64,000 nt of DNA from Acidobacteriota bacterium (lineage in GTDB: Bacteria > Acidobacteriota > Terriglobia > Acidiferrales > UBA7541): assembly GCA_003224085.1 (NCBI GenBank), contig QHYK01000048.1, forward strand, positions 62,001 through 126,000. The letters run 5' to 3'. A program made the position numbers and the translations under genes. Every line of letters starts with the position of its first letter. Within the stretch, counting starts at the first letter, position 1. A model generated the notes under the pieces. It did no database searches, was not told the DNA's origin, and saw only the letters and a program-made list of their open reading frames with translations. Shown piece by piece: positions 7,674 through 18,264 of this stretch.

Positions 7674-8516
7674 GTGGCCGACACTCCGCTCCAGGTAGCA
7701 GGCAACCGTGCGAAACGGGAAGAGGTCCCTTCGGTCGTCGAAGTGCTGGAGGGCGCGACGAAACGGGCGGTGGCCGCCGTTCAGGATTACTCGCAGCTTT
7801 CCTTTCGAGCGCTGACAAATCTCGCGACATCCCCGCATTATTTTCAAGACACGCTCGAGCAAATGGACGACGTAGGAGTCGGCTCACTGCCAATCATCCT
7901 GCTTTCCGGATTCTTCATCGGCGGCGTCATGGTGCTGCAAACCGGAGCGCAGTTCGTGCGGTTTGGGCAAACTTCACTAACGGGAGACGTGGTGTCTCTC
8001 GCTCTGGTGCGCGAGCTTGCCCCGTCCATCACGGGCCTTCTTACGGCAGGGCGTTGCTCTTCGGGAATGGCGTCGGAGTTGGGTTCCATGCTCGTGACCG
8101 AGCAAGTGGATGCGATGCGGGCGATGGGCACGGACCCCAGCCGGAAGCTGGTGACGCCGCGAGTTCTGGCAACCCTGACGATGGTGCCGTTGCTGACGGC
8201 CCTGATGGTTTTCGTTGGTCTGCTGGGCGGATGCGTCGCATCGGTGTTTTCGCTGCAATTGAGCGCGGTGGAGTTTTGGCGGCGCGCGATCGACATATTG
8301 GAATTCTCGGACCTGATGCAGGGCTTTTCAAAGGCCATGGTTTTCGGGTTCCTTTTGGCCACTGTTGGGTGTTACAAGGGATTGACAGCGCGGGGCGGCA
8401 CACAAGGCGTTGGCCGAGCCACGACGCAGGCGGTGGTGATTTCGTCCGTACTTATTATTGTGGCGGATCTCTTTCTGACGAAACTTTCCCTCTACCTCGC
8501 CAACAGAGTCTTCTAA
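7674..8516 (+). CDS. mlaE: MlaE-type ABC transporter permease
   Basis: A 280-residue integral membrane permease of the MlaE/YrbE family, which works with the ATPase MlaF and the MCE protein MlaD to move phospholipids between inner and outer membranes. The conserved stretch VRELAPSITGLLTAGRCSSGMASELGSM and the later TEQVDAMRAMGTDP are typical. It starts at GTG 7674 with AAGGA about five bases upstream. Its usual partners are not adjacent: an S9 peptidase gene on the other strand (8521-10686) lies between it and mlaF. The 3' ends of mlaE and that peptidase gene are only four bases apart. Confidence 0.93.
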   Translation: MADTPLQVAGNRAKREEVPSVVEVLEGATKRAVAAVQDYSQLSFRALTNLATSPHYFQDTLEQMDDVGVGSLPIILLSGFFIGGVMVLQTGAQFVRFGQTSLTGDVVSLALVRELAPSITGLLTAGRCSSGMASELGSMLVTEQVDAMRAMGTDPSRKLVTPRVLATLTMVPLLTALMVFVGLLGGCVASVFSLQLSAVEFWRRAIDILEFSDLMQGFSKAMVFGFLLATVGCYKGLTARGGTQGVGRATTQAVVISSVLIIVADLFLTKLSLYLANRVF

Positions 8517-10686: not shown

Positions 10687-10942
10687 GGAAATTTCCTTTT
10701 CAGTTCAAGAAAAGCGGCCTTATTGTACGCCTAGGTCATCCTCTAGCAGCGCGGCGAGGTGAAATCTGGTCGGCACCGCCCCGCGGGGGCGCTGCAGCTT
10801 CTCAATCGGCAGCCCTCCTTGGGCCTTATTCGCGACACCGTTCCTTCCTTGCGTTTCTCTGCAAACTCCTGCGCCTTTCCGGGCCAGTGCGCTTTGAGTG
10901 CTCTTCCCAGAAGAAAAAGCGAAATGTCGTTATAATCGTAAT

Positions 10943-11779
10943 ATGGCCGAAGACGGCTCTTTTCCCTTCGCGGAAGGAAGGTCTGCCATTGCGTTTGAAG
11001 GCGTGCGCATAGGCTTCGACGGAGGGGAAATCCTGCGCGGCGTATCGTTTTGTGTCCGCCAGCGCGAAACCGTGGTCTTGCTGGGAGAAACGGGGACGGG
11101 CAAGACACTTACTTTGAAGATGGCCGCAGGGTTACTGAAGCCAGACCGCGGCACCATTGACGTCCTGGGGCAAAAAGTTTCCGAAATGGCTGAAAGCGAC
11201 CTGCTGGCGTTCCGCCGAACGATTGGCTTCATGTTTCAAGAGGGAGCGTTGTTCGACTCGATGACCGTAGCGGACAACGTGGCCTACCGGCTTCATGAGG
11301 ATGGTGTTCGGGAGGAAGAGATTGAACCTCGCGTGCGGGAGGTCTTGCGCTTTGTGGAACTGGAGCACACCCTGGACCAGCTGCCTTCCGAGCTGTCGGG
11401 CGGCATGCGGCGTCGCGTTTCCATCGCGCGGGCGCTCATTAACCGCCCACCCATCGTTCTCTATGACTCGCCGACAGCGGGATTGGATCCGGTGACCTCG
11501 CAAACGATCATTACCCTGATTTTACGCCTGCGGGATGTGTACGGAGTGACAGGCCTCCTGGCGACACACCGTCTTCAGGATGGATTTGGCCTGGCAAACT
11601 TTCACTTTGATCCCCACACGGACCGCGTCGTGGCCAATTCCGAAAATGGAAGTGGGGCAGCAGCATTGGCTGCCCGGACGCGGTTTCTCGTGTATCGGGA
11701 CGGGGAAGTTTATTTTGAAGGTGGTCCCGAAGAAATGGTGAACTCGAAAGATCCGTATCTGAAGCGTTTTCTGGTGTAA
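10943..11779 (+). CDS. mlaF: MlaF-type ABC transporter ATP-binding protein
   Basis: A 278-residue ATPase that would power the Mla phospholipid transporter. It has Walker A GETGTGKT, the signature LSGGMRRR (the Met/Arg variant typical of the Mla family) and Walker B LYDSPTAGLDP. I chose the ATG at 10943 (MAEDGSF) because the upstream extension from a GTG at 10898 is unlike the family. An insertion of about 25 residues follows the switch His (GLLATHRLQDGFGL), as is common in these ATPases. mlaD follows after 41 bases; mlaE lies 2.4 kb upstream beyond an opposite-strand gene. Confidence 0.93.
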   Translation: MAEDGSFPFAEGRSAIAFEGVRIGFDGGEILRGVSFCVRQRETVVLLGETGTGKTLTLKMAAGLLKPDRGTIDVLGQKVSEMAESDLLAFRRTIGFMFQEGALFDSMTVADNVAYRLHEDGVREEEIEPRVREVLRFVELEHTLDQLPSELSGGMRRRVSIARALINRPPIVLYDSPTAGLDPVTSQTIITLILRLRDVYGVTGLLATHRLQDGFGLANFHFDPHTDRVVANSENGSGAAALAARTRFLVYRDGEVYFEGGPEEMVNSKDPYLKRFLV

Positions 11780-11820: not shown

Positions 11821-12288
11821 ATGCCGCAGCGAAAACAACTTACCTGGACGGAATTGCGGGTGGGAATGTTCGTGTTAGTGGGTTTGTCCGTGCTGGCAGC
11901 CGGAATTTTTTATGTGACCGGTCAAGGAATTCTAGGGCCGAAATACCGGTTGAAAGCGTATCTGCCGGAAGTGTCGGGCTTGGCAAATGGAGCGCCTGTC
12001 CGCGTGGACGGCGTGGAAGTAGGAAACGTGGAATCCATAAAACTGATGCCGCGAGCCACCGGAAAAGCGACGGAGAAGAATAGAAATATCGAAGTCATCA
12101 TGCGTGTCGACCGGCGTTTCCAGAACTATATTCTGACGGACTCCGTGGCCAGCCTGGTGACCGAGGGCTTGCTCGGAAATCGCTACGTGAACATCAGTCG
12201 TGGGCTAACGGGTACGCCCATCTCCGATTCCGGTGAGATCAAAGGCGTCGAAGAGGAAGCGATGAAGGAAGACTGGGCAAAATGCTAA
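11821..12288 (+). CDS. mlaD: MCE-domain protein MlaD, N-terminal part (split gene)
   Basis: This 155-residue part holds a single N-terminal transmembrane helix (residues 13-35) and the MCE domain (LPEVSGLANGAPVRVDGVEVGNV to LLGNRYVNIS). MCE proteins sit in the periplasm anchored to the inner membrane and form a ring that carries phospholipid. The frame then breaks: after EEEAMK it reads a short foreign tail and stops. The rest of the protein continues in another frame from 12264 onward. Compared with the family pattern, roughly 30-35 residues linking the MCE domain to the repeat region are missing, so a deletion that is not a multiple of three is the simplest explanation. Confidence 0.85.
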   Translation: MPQRKQLTWTELRVGMFVLVGLSVLAAGIFYVTGQGILGPKYRLKAYLPEVSGLANGAPVRVDGVEVGNVESIKLMPRATGKATEKNRNIEVIMRVDRRFQNYILTDSVASLVTEGLLGNRYVNISRGLTGTPISDSGEIKGVEEEAMKEDWAKC

Positions 12289-12812
12289 CGGATGATCAGG
12301 CTTACAACCGCATGAACAACATGCTGGCAAAGGCCGACGCGATGATGACCAGTATTCGCGACGGGCAAGGCACCCTGGGGAAGCTGGTATCTTCCGATGA
12401 GCTGTACACGAAAGTGGACAAGGGCGTGGACAGCATGAACGTGATGCTGGGGGACGTGCGCGCCGGCAAAGGCACCCTCGGCAAATTGATCAACGACCCG
12501 ACACTCTACGACCAAACCAAGGAAGCCGTGGCGAATGGCAGCACCATGCTGCGCGACGTGCGTGCCGGCAAAGGGTCTCTGGGCAAGTTCGTGACCGACG
12601 ACTCCCTTTACCAGAAGTTGCATGAAACGAGCGCAAACTTTGCCTCTGCCTCCTCGAAGTTGAATGACAACACCACAACCGTGGGTAAGATGTTTACGGA
12701 CCCCAAACTCTACGACAACCTTGCGGGGCTCACCGGAGACATGCGCCTGTTAATCGGGGATTTCCGGCAGAACCCTAAAAAATTTCTGCACATTAAAGTC
12801 AGCATGTTCTGA
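12282..12812 (+). CDS. mlaD: MlaD C-terminal repeat region (split gene, second part)
   Basis: This frame starts at an ATG overlapping the stop of the first part (ATGCTAA) and encodes 176 residues. It contains at least three copies of a repeat of about 38 residues with the core GKGTLGKLINDPTLYD, and a terminal block LAGLTGDMRLLIGDFRQNPKKFLHIKVS. This is the usual tail of acidobacterial-type MCE proteins. In-frame codons upstream of the ATG read GRLGK, the expected residues of a further repeat, which shows it was once continuous with the first part. AAGGAAG lies about ten bases before the ATG, so separate translation is possible. Confidence 0.8.
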   Translation: MLTDDQAYNRMNNMLAKADAMMTSIRDGQGTLGKLVSSDELYTKVDKGVDSMNVMLGDVRAGKGTLGKLINDPTLYDQTKEAVANGSTMLRDVRAGKGSLGKFVTDDSLYQKLHETSANFASASSKLNDNTTTVGKMFTDPKLYDNLAGLTGDMRLLIGDFRQNPKKFLHIKVSMF

Positions 12813-12912
12813 AGACCCTCGGACTTTGCCGTAACGGCAGCAATATGCTGTAATGCGGCTGTAACAATCGTTGCATATGTTGCATTTCGGCCCCCCCTCT
12901 GCTCAGAGGCTC

Positions 12913-13674
12913 ATGGAGACTCAGGACGTGGTTCAAAAGCCGGCTCGCAGCGAGCCGGCAAAATCTACTCTTCCGCAACCGGGCCGGCCGGTTCCGAGCC
13001 GCGCCTATCCTGGTGCTTTGATTGTGGTCGAAGGCACGGACGGCTCGGGAAAAAGCACGCAACTGTACTTGCTCAAGCGTTGGCTGGAAATCGGCGGCTA
13101 CCGGCTGCATTTCACGGAGTGGAATTCTTCGCCGCTGGTAAAATCGGCGACGCGGCGCGGCAAACAGCGGCGACTCCTCACGCCCACGACGTTTTCGCTC
13201 CTTCATGCCGCGGATTTTGCGGACCGCTGCGAACGGCAAATCATGCCCTTGTTGCAAGGCGACTATCTGGTTCTCGCCGATCGCTACATTTACACGGCCT
13301 TTGCTCGCGACACGGCCAGGGGCTGCTCTCCGCGCTGGCTAAGAAACCTGTACCGGTTCGCGCCAATTCCCGACATCACATTTTATTTTCGCGCGCCGCT
13401 GGACGTGGCCGTGAATCGCATCTTGAGCGGCCGCCCGAAGCTCAAGTACTACGAAGCGGGCATGGACTTGGGGATGTCGTACGATCGCGCGGAGAGTTTT
13501 CGCTTGTTCCAGGCTCGCATTCTCGAGGAATACGACAAGATGGTGGAGACCGACAATTTCGTGGTTCTCGACGGCACCATGCCCGTCAACAAATTGCAAA
13601 AACAGATGCGCGACATTGTTGCTTCGAAAATCGATCTCAAGCGCTTCGCTCCGCGCGCGGAAGCGGCGGAGTGA
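12913..13674 (+). CDS. Thymidylate-kinase-like P-loop kinase, first of a tandem pair
   Basis: A 253-residue P-loop protein. The Walker A is EGTDGSGKST (Lys47 from the ATG at 12913), followed by a DRY motif (residues 123-125) as in thymidylate kinases, then PDITFYFRAPLDVAVNRIL. A further motif, YYEAGMDLGMSYD (from about residue 179), is shared with the next gene but not typical of housekeeping Tmk. The first 30 residues include a region encoded by a perfect palindrome (12939-12959), so the true start could be further downstream. Three bases separate it from the paralogue, and a Ppx/GppA phosphatase follows. It may phosphorylate a nucleotide, but its substrate is not shown by sequence. Confidence 0.8.
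   Translation: METQDVVQKPARSEPAKSTLPQPGRPVPSRAYPGALIVVEGTDGSGKSTQLYLLKRWLEIGGYRLHFTEWNSSPLVKSATRRGKQRRLLTPTTFSLLHAADFADRCERQIMPLLQGDYLVLADRYIYTAFARDTARGCSPRWLRNLYRFAPIPDITFYFRAPLDVAVNRILSGRPKLKYYEAGMDLGMSYDRAESFRLFQARILEEYDKMVETDNFVVLDGTMPVNKLQKQMRDIVASKIDLKRFAPRAEAAE
12939..12959. repeat. Perfect 9-bp palindrome inside the 5' end of a kinase gene
   Basis: GCCGGCTCG and CGAGCCGGC flank three bases. The element is translated as part of KPARSEPAK if the upstream ATG is used. It resembles REP-type palindromes and may have been inserted into a tolerant N-terminal extension, or it may mark untranslated leader. Confidence 0.6.
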
Positions 13675-13676
13675 CC

Positions 13677-14519
13677 ATGCCCGAGCCAGAAAAAGAAAAA
13701 GCAGCAACGTCAGCGCCCCCGGTCGAGGCGCCCACCCCTCCGGCCCCCGCGCCGCCGAAAGCCGTATCCGCACCGGAAGAAGCCGGCTCGCAATATTTTT
13801 TTGGCGAACCTCTCGTCGGGTTTGATCCCAGCGAAATCACCGGCAGCCTGATCGTGATTGAGGGCATGGACGGGTCAGGCCGCTCCACCCAAATTGCCCT
13901 GTTGCAGGAGTGGCTCGAATCCGAAGGCTTCGCGGTGCAGACCAGCGGTTTGCGGCGCTCTAATCTGGTTGGGCGCGACATCGATGAGCTGTTGGCCAAG
14001 AATGCCGTCACCCGGTTGACTCTGGCTCTGATGTACGCCACCGATTTTTTTGACCAAATCGAGCACCGTATCCTGCCCGCGCTGCGCTCCGGCACGGTCG
14101 TGCTCGCGGACCGTTATATTTTCACCTTGATTGCCCGCGGCGTCGTGCGCGGCATCAATCGCGATTACATGAGCGGCCTCTACGCCATGGCACTCCGGCC
14201 GCATCTGACCTTCTGGCTAAACGTGCGCCCGGAGACCGCGTTCGCCCGCGAATTCCGCAAAGCGCAAGCCATAAGTTATTGGGAAGCCGGGCGCGATATG
14301 TCTCTTTCGCATGATCTGTATTGGTCCTTCATCCGTTACCAGACTATGATTAAGCGGGAATTCGAGGTCATGGCGAAAAGGTTCAACTTCATCGAGCTGG
14401 ACGGCGAGGCCAGCGTTCCTGCCGTCAACAAACTGCTCCGGCAGCGCATCGCGGAGCAACTCGGCATTCGTGCGACGAAATACTCTCCCTCCGCAGCCCT
14501 GTCTCACCTCTGGCGGTAA
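13677..14519 (+). CDS. Thymidylate-kinase-like protein with altered P-loop, second of a tandem pair
   Basis: A 280-residue paralogue of the preceding kinase. An N-terminal tail of about 50 residues rich in Pro, Ala and Glu comes first. The P-loop reads GMDGSGRST, with Arg69 where kinases have the catalytic lysine. The DRY motif is at 145-147, and the pair-specific motif appears as YWEAGRDMSLSHD. The Lys-to-Arg change suggests weak or no phosphotransfer, perhaps a regulatory partner of the first kinase; that is inference. It starts two bases after the first gene's stop and is followed eight bases later by the Ppx/GppA gene, so all three are likely cotranscribed. Confidence 0.8.
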   Translation: MPEPEKEKAATSAPPVEAPTPPAPAPPKAVSAPEEAGSQYFFGEPLVGFDPSEITGSLIVIEGMDGSGRSTQIALLQEWLESEGFAVQTSGLRRSNLVGRDIDELLAKNAVTRLTLALMYATDFFDQIEHRILPALRSGTVVLADRYIFTLIARGVVRGINRDYMSGLYAMALRPHLTFWLNVRPETAFAREFRKAQAISYWEAGRDMSLSHDLYWSFIRYQTMIKREFEVMAKRFNFIELDGEASVPAVNKLLRQRIAEQLGIRATKYSPSAALSHLWR

Positions 14520-14527
14520 ATTCGCCG

Positions 14528-16114
14528 ATGCCTGAGCCGGTCCACATTGCGGCCATCGACGCCGGTTCCAACGCCGTACGCCTTTCTGTCGCGCGCGCCT
14601 ATTCCGCCTTGGACATCGAACCGCTGCAAACCGAGCGCTACCCGCTGCGCCTGGGAGAAAATGTTTTTCTGCGGCCGCGCTTCAGCGAGGAGGTTTTCAA
14701 GAGGGCCGCAAAAGGGTTTCGCTATTTTCGCGAAGTGATGGACGATTTCGGCGTGGCCAAGTACCGCGCGGTGGCCACCAGCGCCACGCGCGAAGCGCAA
14801 AATCGCGACGCTTTTGTTCGAGCGATGAAGAGAAAGTCGGGCATCGTGCTGGAAGTGATCAGCGCTGCGGAAGAATCCCGGCTTGGCAGGGAAGCCGTTC
14901 TTGCAGCCCTCGGTCCGGAAGCGGTGCCGCGCTGCATCGTGGATTTAGGCGGCGGCAGTCTGGAGATCAGTATCCTCCGGGATCACAGCGTGAAACAAAG
15001 CGCTCAGTTGCCTGTGGGCACCGTGCGTCTCATGACCACTTTGGATTTGCCGGGGGTAATTCATTCCACGCAAGCCGAACAGGTTCGAAAGTATGTGCGC
15101 GCCCTGCTGGAGTCGAAGCTCGTGCCGCGGCCCAACCTGAACGACGGCATCGCCGTGGCCTTGGGAGGCAATGCCGAAACGCTTGCCGAAATCGCCCCGG
15201 GAGAACGCGTTCACGGCATGCAAACCATCGAGCTGTCCCTGTTGCGGGAACGGCTCCCGGCCATTCTTGAGCGCGATGTCCGCGAACGAATGAAGACCTA
15301 CGGCGTGCGACGAGACCGCGCCGATGTGATGGGCATCGCCGCCATCACTTTTGTCACGCTGGGACGCTATTTGAACCTTCGCCTGTTGGCCGTACCGGGC
15401 GTCGGGGTTCGCGAGGGGCTTCTGCAGGAGATCGCGCACGAACTTTTCTCCCGCAAGGAACCGCATCGCTACAATGGCGCAGCGCGTCAATTGCTCATGG
15501 GCACACGCAGTTTTGCTCGGCGCCTTGAATACGACCAGCAGCACGCAGAACACGTGCGCGAGCTGAGTCTTCAGCTCTTTGACCAGTTGCATCCCGTACA
15601 CCGTTTGCCCCCGCAAACTCGCGTCCTCCTGGAAGCGGGTGCTTTGTTGCACGACACGGGACACATGGTCAGTCATCGTGGACACCACAAGCACGGAGAG
15701 TATCTCGTCCTGAATGGCGACATTCCCGGCCTGGAGGGGCGCGAGCGCGCCATCGTCGCGGGCTTGGTTCGCTATCACAATCGAAAATCCGAACCCACAG
15801 CTCATCATCCCGCCTATTCTTCTTTGGACGATGCCGATAAGCCCATTCTGCGCAGACTGGCGGCGATTTTACGCATCGCCGAGAGTTTCGATCACTCGCA
15901 CCGGCAGCGTATCGTGAAAATTCACGCCACGTTTCAGCGCGGCGCCGTCGGATTGGAAGTGCAGTCCCGCGGCGATGCCAGCGAAGACCTCCGCGACGCG
16001 GGCCGCAGCGCGGAGTGGTTTGAGAAAGAGTGCCACGTTAAGGTTTATTCGCGCCCGACTCCTAGCATCATGAATCGAATCCGGCGGTTTCTCCGCCCGT
16101 CGTCGGCCTCGTGA
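14528..16114 (+). CDS. ppx: Ppx/GppA phosphatase with C-terminal HD domain
   Basis: A 528-residue exopolyphosphatase / pppGpp phosphohydrolase family member. The ASKHA fold is seen in AAIDAGSNAVRL (residues 8-19), ATSATREAQN, EESRLG with the catalytic Glu115/116, and the phosphate loop DLGGGS (139-144). The C-terminal half is an HD domain with HD at 375-376 and HRGHHKHG after it. Such enzymes remove phosphate from polyphosphate ends or convert pppGpp to ppGpp. Its neighbours (SixA and CHAD) favour a polyphosphate role. It follows the two kinase-like genes with an eight-base gap. Confidence 0.92.
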   Translation: MPEPVHIAAIDAGSNAVRLSVARAYSALDIEPLQTERYPLRLGENVFLRPRFSEEVFKRAAKGFRYFREVMDDFGVAKYRAVATSATREAQNRDAFVRAMKRKSGIVLEVISAAEESRLGREAVLAALGPEAVPRCIVDLGGGSLEISILRDHSVKQSAQLPVGTVRLMTTLDLPGVIHSTQAEQVRKYVRALLESKLVPRPNLNDGIAVALGGNAETLAEIAPGERVHGMQTIELSLLRERLPAILERDVRERMKTYGVRRDRADVMGIAAITFVTLGRYLNLRLLAVPGVGVREGLLQEIAHELFSRKEPHRYNGAARQLLMGTRSFARRLEYDQQHAEHVRELSLQLFDQLHPVHRLPPQTRVLLEAGALLHDTGHMVSHRGHHKHGEYLVLNGDIPGLEGRERAIVAGLVRYHNRKSEPTAHHPAYSSLDDADKPILRRLAAILRIAESFDHSHRQRIVKIHATFQRGAVGLEVQSRGDASEDLRDAGRSAEWFEKECHVKVYSRPTPSIMNRIRRFLRPSSAS

Positions 16115-16163: not shown

Positions 16164-16661
16164 ATGGAGCTCTATGTCGTCCGGCACGGCATCGCGATTG
16201 ATCGCGAAGACCCGAAATGTCCCCCCGATCCAGAAAGATATTTGACCGATGAAGGTGTGGAGAAAACCAAAGGCGTCGCGAAGGGCATGGCCGCTCTTGG
16301 CATAGATCCGGGATTGTTCATCAGCAGTCCTTACACTCGTGCCTTGCAAACGGCAGAGGTTTTCGCGGACGCCCTCGACTACTCTAGGCAGAAAATCCAG
16401 CGCAGCGAATTGCTGCTGCCGGGCGCGGAACCCACCCTGTTATACCGCGAACTCGCCCGCGAAAGGGCTTCATCGATTTTTCTGTTTGGACATGCGCCCC
16501 AGCTCGACGACGTCATCGCCACAGCTCTGGGGGCCAAGAAGCGCGTCACCTCCTTGAAAAAAGCCGGGGTCGCCCTGATTGATCTGAAGCGCATCTCTCC
16601 GCCGATGGGGCAGCTTGTGTGGCTGGCTATTCCAAGGATGCTGCGCCGCGTCGGCAAGTAA
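16164..16661 (+). CDS. sixA: SixA-type phosphohistidine phosphatase
   Basis: A 165-residue member of the histidine phosphatase superfamily. The catalytic RHG is at the N-terminus (YVVRHGIAID), the second Arg is in SSPYTRALQTAE, and the second His is in LFGHAPQLDD. SixA of Escherichia coli dephosphorylates phosphohistidine on a phosphotransfer protein. In many genomes SixA homologues sit beside CHAD and Ppx genes, as here, which suggests a link with polyphosphate or phosphohistidine turnover. GGAGAAGAAG precedes the ATG. Its 3' end faces the convergent CHAD gene 16 bases away. Confidence 0.9.
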   Translation: MELYVVRHGIAIDREDPKCPPDPERYLTDEGVEKTKGVAKGMAALGIDPGLFISSPYTRALQTAEVFADALDYSRQKIQRSELLLPGAEPTLLYRELARERASSIFLFGHAPQLDDVIATALGAKKRVTSLKKAGVALIDLKRISPPMGQLVWLAIPRMLRRVGK

Positions 16662-16677: not shown

Positions 16678-18264
16678 TCAGTCGGAGGCCACGGAGAACT
16701 GCGGTGCCTGCGGCGTCGGCAGCGGAACAACCTTGCCATGCTTGACCGCAGGCTTCAGGATCAGCGGAATTCCAAGATATTCCTCAAGCAGATGCTTGCC
16801 CGCCCCGAGGCGCGCGGCGGTCTCCACGTCGTCAACCAGTCCTCGAACGTGAAGCACGATGGTCTCTTCGGATTTTTCTGCCCGAAGCCCCGCGCCGCTC
16901 TCTACGCCGCATTTGCGAAGGGCCAAGGCCAGTCGCAAGACTCCGGTCAATGCGCGAACGCGATTCTGCCGCTCGGCGGACAATTTGGAAAACGGACCCG
17001 ACTTCTCCGACGGTTCGGTCCCCCGGTGATAGCGGACCACGGCTCCCAGCAATTCCCACTCTTCGTTGTTCCAGCCGGGAGGCAACGGCAGACCAAGAAT
17101 AAATTTGCGCGCAGCCTTTTGCCGGGACTTGTCCGTATTGGCCGCGCCTGCTCCGTGGAGCCGTGCCGCTGCCAGCAAGATGCGCCTCAGCGGTGGCTCG
17201 CGAAATGCCATGCCGGCGTTCGCGCGTTTCAACGCTTCGTAAATTGCCACGGCAATTCGAGAGATTTGTGACGTGCGGTTCGCGTCCGGGTCGACAGCGC
17301 GGGCTGTCGCCCGCAACCGAGCCTCTGCAGCGGCCTCGACCCGTCCGTTCGTTGGCAGCCCGGCTCGCCAGACATTCCAGAGGCTCGTTTTTCCTAACGT
17401 GAGTTGGCGGTAAGTGCGCAGGCGCTCCTGCCGCTCGCGCCCGATGATTTCGGCCCAGAGATTCAACGAGTCTTCTGTTTCGACGAAATCCGACTTCTTG
17501 ACAACATCCGACAGGACGTCCAGGTCGTGAACTTCTCCTAGCAAATCCTGGACGCGCTTAAGGTTCTCGCTCCATATCGCGTAGTGCTCCGGAAGCAGGC
17601 TCTCAACCGTATATCGGAACCGTTTCAGGCTAATGCGCAATGCGTGCCACGGCTTGGGCTTTTCTGTGCGCAACGCTTTTGCGTGAAGCTCCTTCGCGTC
17701 TTGGAATCGCTCCAGCGCCAGACATTCAGCCGCCAGCCCGCCCGCTGGCACCTGGCGGCTATGTTTCCGCAAAACCCGCGCTAGGTGTTTCCAAGACTTT
17801 ATGTCGAACTTTGCCACGGCGTGCAGCGCCACCGCGCGCAGTTGCGCCTCCTGCGCTTTGAAGTATCCCTCCAAATGCGCGCGGACCGGATCGTTTTCTG
17901 GTCCGAACTTCTTGACCAATTCCTCCATCACTTGCGCGTCGCGGAGCGCGCCAAGCGCCCGGAAAAGTTTTCGCGCTGCTCTACGCATCGCCGGCCAGAC
18001 CGGGTCGGGATCCATTTCCTCCATGGCCGCGGCGACCGAGCGGCATCGGCGAATGGCCACGCGAAGATCATGGACAGCGTCTGGGCTTGGCGACGCGCGC
18101 ACCAATTCCCGTTCTTTCAGGACTTGTTCCATCCAGAAAGACAAATCACGGTGCTCCGCGTGACCTCCCGCAGAAACGGGAGTAACGATGGATACGGATC
18201 TCCTCAAGATGCCCGCCCGGATGTTTCCTGGCGAGACGGAAACCCCTGCCGAGCGAGGAAGCAT
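16678..18264 (-). CDS. CHAD-domain protein fused to a degenerate Ppx-like C-terminal domain
   Basis: A 528-residue protein. Residues about 35-330 form a CHAD domain (conserved histidine alpha-helical), starting with HDLRVAIRRCRS (65-76) and rich in Arg and His on its helices; CHAD domains bind polyphosphate. Residues about 345-500 resemble the C-terminal HD-like domain of Ppx/GppA (ARKFILGLPLPPGW, VVRYHRGTEP, VLRLALALRKCGVE, KHLLEEYLGIPL). The HD catalytic pair is lost (LHGAG at 369-373). It is convergent with ppx and sixA. The fusion suggests the protein uses the Ppx-like part for binding or dimerisation rather than catalysis. Confidence 0.85.
   Translation of the reverse strand: MLPRSAGVSVSPGNIRAGILRRSVSIVTPVSAGGHAEHRDLSFWMEQVLKERELVRASPSPDAVHDLRVAIRRCRSVAAAMEEMDPDPVWPAMRRAARKLFRALGALRDAQVMEELVKKFGPENDPVRAHLEGYFKAQEAQLRAVALHAVAKFDIKSWKHLARVLRKHSRQVPAGGLAAECLALERFQDAKELHAKALRTEKPKPWHALRISLKRFRYTVESLLPEHYAIWSENLKRVQDLLGEVHDLDVLSDVVKKSDFVETEDSLNLWAEIIGRERQERLRTYRQLTLGKTSLWNVWRAGLPTNGRVEAAAEARLRATARAVDPDANRTSQISRIAVAIYEALKRANAGMAFREPPLRRILLAAARLHGAGAANTDKSRQKAARKFILGLPLPPGWNNEEWELLGAVVRYHRGTEPSEKSGPFSKLSAERQNRVRALTGVLRLALALRKCGVESGAGLRAEKSEETIVLHVRGLVDDVETAARLGAGKHLLEEYLGIPLILKPAVKHGKVVPLPTPQAPQFSVASD
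17728..17760. repeat. Nested inverted repeat within the CHAD gene
   Basis: AGCCGCCAG (17728-17736) and CTGGCGGCT (17752-17760) form a 9-bp stem, with a second inner stem GCCAGC/GCTGGC. It encodes a Gly/Ala/Pro-rich stretch between CHAD helices (VPAGGLAAECLALE). It resembles other palindromes of this window that lie inside reading frames. Confidence 0.45.

Follow-up and report, generated by a model that had tools for sequence, protein, structure and literature searches.

A lysine/arginine pair of thymidylate kinase-like genes beside polyphosphate-related genes in Acidobacteriota

Two adjacent kinase-like genes differ at the Walker A lysine

Within the window (the whole 64,000-nucleotide stretch of DNA analysed here), two genes for thymidylate kinase (Tmk)-like proteins lie in tandem, with the first, A, stopping two bases ahead of the start of the second, B. 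The features of the locus are as follows.

12871..13674, + strand: A (candidate subunit A), Tmk-like kinase with Walker A Lys61, from its PF02223 match and a reading of the P-loop
13030..13059, + strand: Walker A of A, EGTDGSGKST
13677..14519, + strand: B (candidate subunit B), Tmk-like protein with Arg69 at the Walker A Lys position
13860..13889, + strand: Walker A of B, EGMDGSGRST, with the Arg69 codon CGC at 13881-13883
14109..14117, + strand: DRY motif of B (D145-R146-Y147), of which D and R are kept in all B
14283..14297, + strand: EAGRD lid segment of B (E203, G205, D207), common to A and Sulfolobus tokodaii ST1543
14528..16114, + strand: Ppx/GppA phosphatase family protein, exopolyphosphatase-like (PF02541, 153.8 bits; PF21447, 98 bits)
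16164..16661, + strand: SixA-like histidine phosphatase (PF00300, 32.6 bits)
16678..18264, - strand: CHAD protein with an additional Ppx-GppA domain III (PF05235, 117.7 bits; PF21447, 44.7 bits)

Residues of A are numbered from the TTG at 12871; a later ATG may be the true start. B translates to 280 amino acids. The initial annotation had pointed to an arginine in the P-loop of B where the neighbouring EGTDGSGKST has lysine, and translation confirms it as Arg69; the DRY and other motifs described there as remaining are present too, as D145-R146-Y147 and a set of well-kept active-site-like residues given below. PF02223 (Thymidylate_kin) scores 74.7 bits for B and 71.3 bits for A (cut-off 27), and the PF02223 and TIGR00041 matches of the pair lie narrowly over the curated cut-off. 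Pfam scans gave neither protein a match to PF03976 (PPK2) at E 0.001 or to PF02503 (PPK1). Four genes of the same genome match PF02223, namely the pair, L001, which scores above it at 85.8 bits, and L004, which is weaker at 30.3 bits. No fusion of A to B occurred among 424 ORFs, and the one ORF with two domain stretches (L208) is a single B protein with a split match. The search for plasmid carriage returned a single weak match, annotated as dTMP kinase.

The lysine/arginine pairing is fixed in Acidobacteriota

Across Acidobacteriota, the Walker A position holds Arg in 139/139 distinct B sequences and Lys in 136/136 distinct A sequences. These counts cover distinct ORFs from loci L035-L226 and the window that scored >230 bits and whose P-loop could be recognised by its shape, with any residue allowed at the Lys/Arg position; this shape requirement would drop any broken-P-loop B homologues from the 139. 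A separate tally of P-loop matches, with duplicates included, gave 161 R, 161 K and 3 partial; several of loci L141-L157 derive from the same genomes as L035-L082. Other letters of the B P-loop vary (GSG, GAG, GVG, AVG, SVG) around the constant Arg. The two genes share a strand in 135/135 loci tested, and A is upstream in 134 of these, the exception (L068) being an artefact of stop-to-stop ORF ends. The orthologue alignment proposed in the initial annotation thus finds Arg fixed, rather than the mostly Lys-bearing orthologues that would have marked Arg69 as a local change. We therefore reject a mutation or sequencing error confined to one genome, an explanation for which we found no favourable point and which is exceedingly improbable.

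Thirteen further positions (E62, G63, D65, G68, T71, D145, R146, R154, R158, R191, E203, G205 and D207) are 99-100% conserved among the 139 distinct B sequences. Because these active-site-like residues are kept, B is no relic or decayed gene but a protein that has been maintained, with a single conspicuous change. The same conservation favours a reading in which A and B are both active and Arg69 of B substitutes functionally for Lys, with polyphosphate itself as one conceivable alternative donor. However, replacement of the Walker A Lys by Arg commonly allows binding and impairs turnover in P-loop proteins, and B homologues with a broken P-loop occur in loci with the same two-gene layout (L252, L253) and in a sister family. 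Two active subunits are, on this balance, quite unlikely.

The pair is common in its own lineage. In the order of the source genome, 92/95 genomes match B at E 1e-5, a count to which A and ordinary Tmks contribute. At class level, 191/399 genomes match at 1e-15, and the pair was called in 174, by a best E of the B query ≤1e-44; counted as having no pair were genomes with A only (G085, G096, G136, G142) and 13 weak matches. In a phylum-wide sample, 45/297 genomes match the B profile at 1e-30. Several genomes of genus g11 (G067-G072, G074, G075, G081, G086) have two A/B pairs each, one orthologous to the window pair and the other more distant, together with PPK1.

The pair forms a separate branch of the thymidylate kinase superfamily

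In a 65-row tree, B forms one clade (100/99), A forms one group with moderate support (76/90), and ordinary Tmks are separate (100/93). Also distinct are A' and B', each one clade (100/100), which make up a sister two-gene family (L209-L216, L169-L171). In this family, a Lys-type kinase, A' (AFEGPDGSGKTT), is followed by B', an A-like protein without P-loop and without DR motif; B' was not found at L209. A Porin_O_P gene lies near A'/B' in L212 and L213, and L212 also has a CotH kinase gene. The archaeal protein ST1543 joins A and A' (93/86), beside B. If this placement holds, the split between A and B would predate the parting of bacterial A from archaeal ST1543. An old split of this kind would predict an Arg-type partner in Sulfolobales.

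ST1543 (PDB 2plr, 4nzy, 4rzx, 5h70) is the best PDB sequence match of both A (205 bits) and B (134 bits). It has the EWNSS and EAG.D motifs, as does A, and it is Lys-type, in contrast to B. The structural model of B (pLDDT 81.5, pTM 0.82; residues 51-59 and 153-167 (lid region) below 50) has ST1543 as its best fold match (Z 22.8, rmsd 2.6, 188 aligned), with other Tmks within about 1 Z unit, which is a tie by the rule of the tool. PPK2 was absent among the best 50 entries listed, which excludes nothing. The AlphaFold model of A was poor (pLDDT 41.3) and was left out of the analysis. The pair is a separate branch of the thymidylate kinase superfamily, nearest in structure to ST1543.

The fold, the Walker A region and the DR motif are common to the pair and to Tmks; the two-gene unit, the Arg in Walker A of B and the separate clade set the pair apart. 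The Walker A Lys is found in the A' sequences, in ST1543 and in 12/12 ordinary Tmks compared, so that by this Tmk feature A conforms and B, with Arg in 139/139, does not. Ordinary Tmks also have the Pro of the EPGG region and one particular Arg in 12/12 sequences, and the Glu in 75%. At the E-P positions A has W-N and B has other letters, and at the Arg position both have F. In Tmks the conserved Arg contacts thymine and, with the E-P of the EPGG region, has a role in thymidylate recognition. A simple duplication of an ordinary Tmk is disfavoured by the separate clade and by the missing E-P and Arg.

These comparisons bear on the most conventional reading, in which the pair is a nucleotide kinase (for dTMP, or for a wider range of NMPs or dNMPs) with a regulatory Arg-type subunit, and the polyphosphate neighbours are incidental or merely co-regulated. 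The PF02223 and TIGR00041 matches, narrow as they are, speak for it, as does ST1543, whose PDB entries were deposited as dTMP kinase with ADP-bound crystals. Against it, A and B are without the E-P and the Arg just described, and a further Tmk-like gene of the genome, L001, clusters with the ordinary Tmks. A nucleotide kinase would also leave the gene neighbourhood, the PPK1 pattern and a Ppx fusion, all described below, unexplained, and we consider it unlikely.

A P-loop fold is also common to the pair and to PPK2 (PF03976). Membership of A and B in PPK2 was rejected for want of a PF03976 match. In the structural comparison given in PMC4748334 for F. tularensis PPK2, the closest structures after other PPK2s are two thymidylate kinases, of which ST1543 is named first.

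Polyphosphate-related genes recur beside the pair

The Ppx/GppA, SixA-like and CHAD genes follow the pair directly downstream. The Ppx/GppA protein reaches 195.3 bits against TIGR03706, below the cut-off of 307, and the SixA-like protein 67.2 bits against TIGR00249, just below the cut-off of 74.5. CHAD domains bind polyphosphate (PMC6537752). Ppx, CHAD or SixA genes flank the pair in 46/46 loci of its own order; at least one of the three lies within about 4 kb in 53/60 class pair loci and within about 5 kb in 22/29 pair loci of the phylum sample, whose 38 loci comprise these 29, 8 A' loci and one locus with B only (L217). The flanks of the 8 sister-family (A'/B') loci hold none of them (0/8). 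Gene order and strand of these neighbours differ between families, so that the association goes beyond the inheritance of a single arrangement. No Ppx, CHAD or SixA gene was found in the flanks of 14/89 class and phylum pair loci, and no recurrent element emerged from Pfam scans around two pair loci of this kind (L189, L190).

Just upstream of the pair lie genes for MlaE (7674-8516), an MlaF-like ATPase (10898-11779) and MlaD (11821-12812), and in other lineages an ABC ATPase with a match to the MlaF profile is found repeatedly close to the pair. In the window, the MlaD-like protein is divided between two overlapping frames, 11821-12288 and 12282-12812. The division has the look of a frameshift or of an error in assembly, since both halves occur in a single ORF in 37/68 ORFs that match the second half.

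An anticorrelation between the pair and PPK1 recurs in two phyla

The genome that carries the window has one PPK2 and no match to PPK1 (PF02503). PPK1 occurs in 227/399 class genomes, and its distribution runs opposite to that of the pair: 43 genomes have both, 131 the pair only, 184 PPK1 only and 41 neither (odds ratio 0.073, p 3.7e-31). The pattern persists after removal of the pair's own order and of 106 PPK1 genomes of family f11 (both 18, pair only 75, PPK1 only 77, neither 28; odds ratio 0.087, p 1.2e-14). It is also seen within family f7, where 39 genomes have the pair, 67 have PPK1 and 9 have both, and where p is 5.5e-6 even with all 28 'neither' genomes outside the own order assigned to f7. 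The own order shows no pair-PPK1 anticorrelation (both 25, pair only 56, PPK1 only 1, neither 13; p 0.10). G034, a 99% complete genome of the same genus, lacks the pair as well as PPK1 and so is a useful natural negative.

In Chloroflexota, 47/251 genomes match at 1e-25, nearly all with adjacent pairs. With the pair called as at least two matches at this threshold (46 of the 47 genomes; G782 has one), 10 genomes have both, 36 the pair only, 108 PPK1 only and 97 neither (odds ratio 0.25, p 1.4e-4). All of these p-values overstate independence, because the tests ignore relatedness, and genome incompleteness may add false absences of the pair or of PPK1; the repetition of the anticorrelation in a second phylum is a stronger point than the p-values themselves.

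Lys/Arg pairs make up 18/20 Chloroflexota loci (17 standard; L254 has a divergent second gene). In the other two, the first gene keeps Lys and the second has a degenerate P-loop and is fused to a Ppx-GppA_III domain (L252:5572-6978, 36.9 bits; L253:4299-5690, 30.0 bits; cut-off 27.3). Ppx, CHAD or SixA neighbours are found in just 7/20 Chloroflexota loci, a weaker association than in Acidobacteriota; the two loci with the Ppx-GppA_III fusion come in addition to these 7.

These data also bear on the direction of the reaction. The pair might consume polyphosphate, phosphorylating nucleotides as PPK2 does, instead of making it; the adjoining Ppx and CHAD genes and the fold kinship with PPK2 would suit such an activity. 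On the other hand, an anticorrelation with PPK1, the synthesising enzyme, better fits a maker, and the genome already has a PPK2. Consumption is rather unlikely on these grounds.

A proposed two-subunit polyphosphate enzyme

We think it somewhat probable that A and B are the two subunits of one heteromeric enzyme, either a polyphosphate kinase or a polyphosphate-nucleotide phosphotransferase, in which A is catalytic and B binds phosphate and is probably non-catalytic. By analogy with other P-loop kinases, A would bind nucleotide and transfer phosphate by means of Lys61, D137-R138 and the lid, and B would hold phosphate or a stretch of polyphosphate through R69, R146, R154, R158 and R191. B would thereby complete, shape or regulate the active complex, probably transferring no phosphate itself. 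The complex would most likely make polyphosphate from nucleoside triphosphate; alternatively, it might run in reverse as a polyphosphate-nucleotide phosphotransferase. The physical complex, the inactivity of B, the substrate and the direction of reaction are all inferred.

The division into an active and an inactive partner is supported by the second genes of L252 and L253 and by sister B', in which the P-loop has been lost and the first gene keeps Lys; the tethering of the L252 and L253 homologues to a Ppx domain further supports a non-catalytic B. In most B, the Walker A Lys is the sole motif residue replaced, with fuller loss seen in L252, L253 and B' alone. B may still be active, since it keeps D145, R146, R154, R158, R191, E203 and D207. 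The initial annotation had proposed an active/inactive pair and possibly a heterodimer. The pairing itself proves to be fixed, which makes a heteromer plausible, and B is likely to be inactive.

The function is more likely to involve polyphosphate than thymidylate, an assignment that draws on genomic context and that was absent from the initial annotation. It is supported by the Ppx, SixA and CHAD neighbours, by the anticorrelation with PPK1 in two phyla and by the fusion of B to Ppx/GppA. Further support comes from the kinship of the pair to ST1543, the structural likeness of ST1543 to PPK2 and a comparable gene cluster in Sulfolobales: the Fig. 2 legend of PMC10892726 places SixA, PPX, dTMP kinase and CHAD genes together in biomining archaea of this order. 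Counting against the assignment are the deposition of ST1543, the closest solved relative of A, as a dTMP kinase, the lack of PPK1 anticorrelation in the own order, the PPK2 of the genome itself, and the loci without polyphosphate neighbours (14/89 in class and phylum, with neighbours in only 7/20 in Chloroflexota).

The archaeal literature offers a possible parallel. Sulfolobales are reported to be without PPK in PMC7831078 and PMC6864096, and the crenarchaeal polyphosphate-making enzyme is described as unidentified in PMC10892726. PMC13318637 credits Hofmann et al. 2026 (J Biol Chem 302:111283) with a distinct PPK-type enzyme of Sulfolobus (Crenarchaeota). The pair is possibly of the same family as that crenarchaeal polyphosphate kinase, with the difference that the pair described here is bacterial. 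The Sulfolobus work reportedly concerns Tmk-like genes beside ppx. Our literature search, whose coverage lay outside Hofmann et al. 2026 (the likeliest relevant source), found no bacterial Lys/Arg pair, and we do not claim absence from print.

Many organisms that hold polyphosphate have no known kinase for it, and the title of Whitehead 2014 states that most bacteria synthesise polyphosphate by unknown mechanisms. The pair may be an overlooked two-part polyphosphate enzyme. With its polyphosphate neighbours, and commoner where PPK1 is absent, it is a concrete candidate of two genes, amenable to expression and assay. More tentatively, an asymmetric bacterial two-subunit polyphosphate kinase could replace PPK1 across large parts of Acidobacteriota and Chloroflexota, where annotation as 'thymidylate kinase' would conceal it, and in some lines its partner subunit would have lost the P-loop altogether; we hold this broader proposal with some doubt. 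B would also be a naturally occurring example of how one subunit of a P-loop kinase becomes a partner and yet keeps its fold. As a separate observation on the architecture of B, the B frame of one genome (G263; L184:1330-2835, the same gene as in L167) continues into HAD-phosphatase-like sequence, in which a DLDGT motif was recognised by eye.
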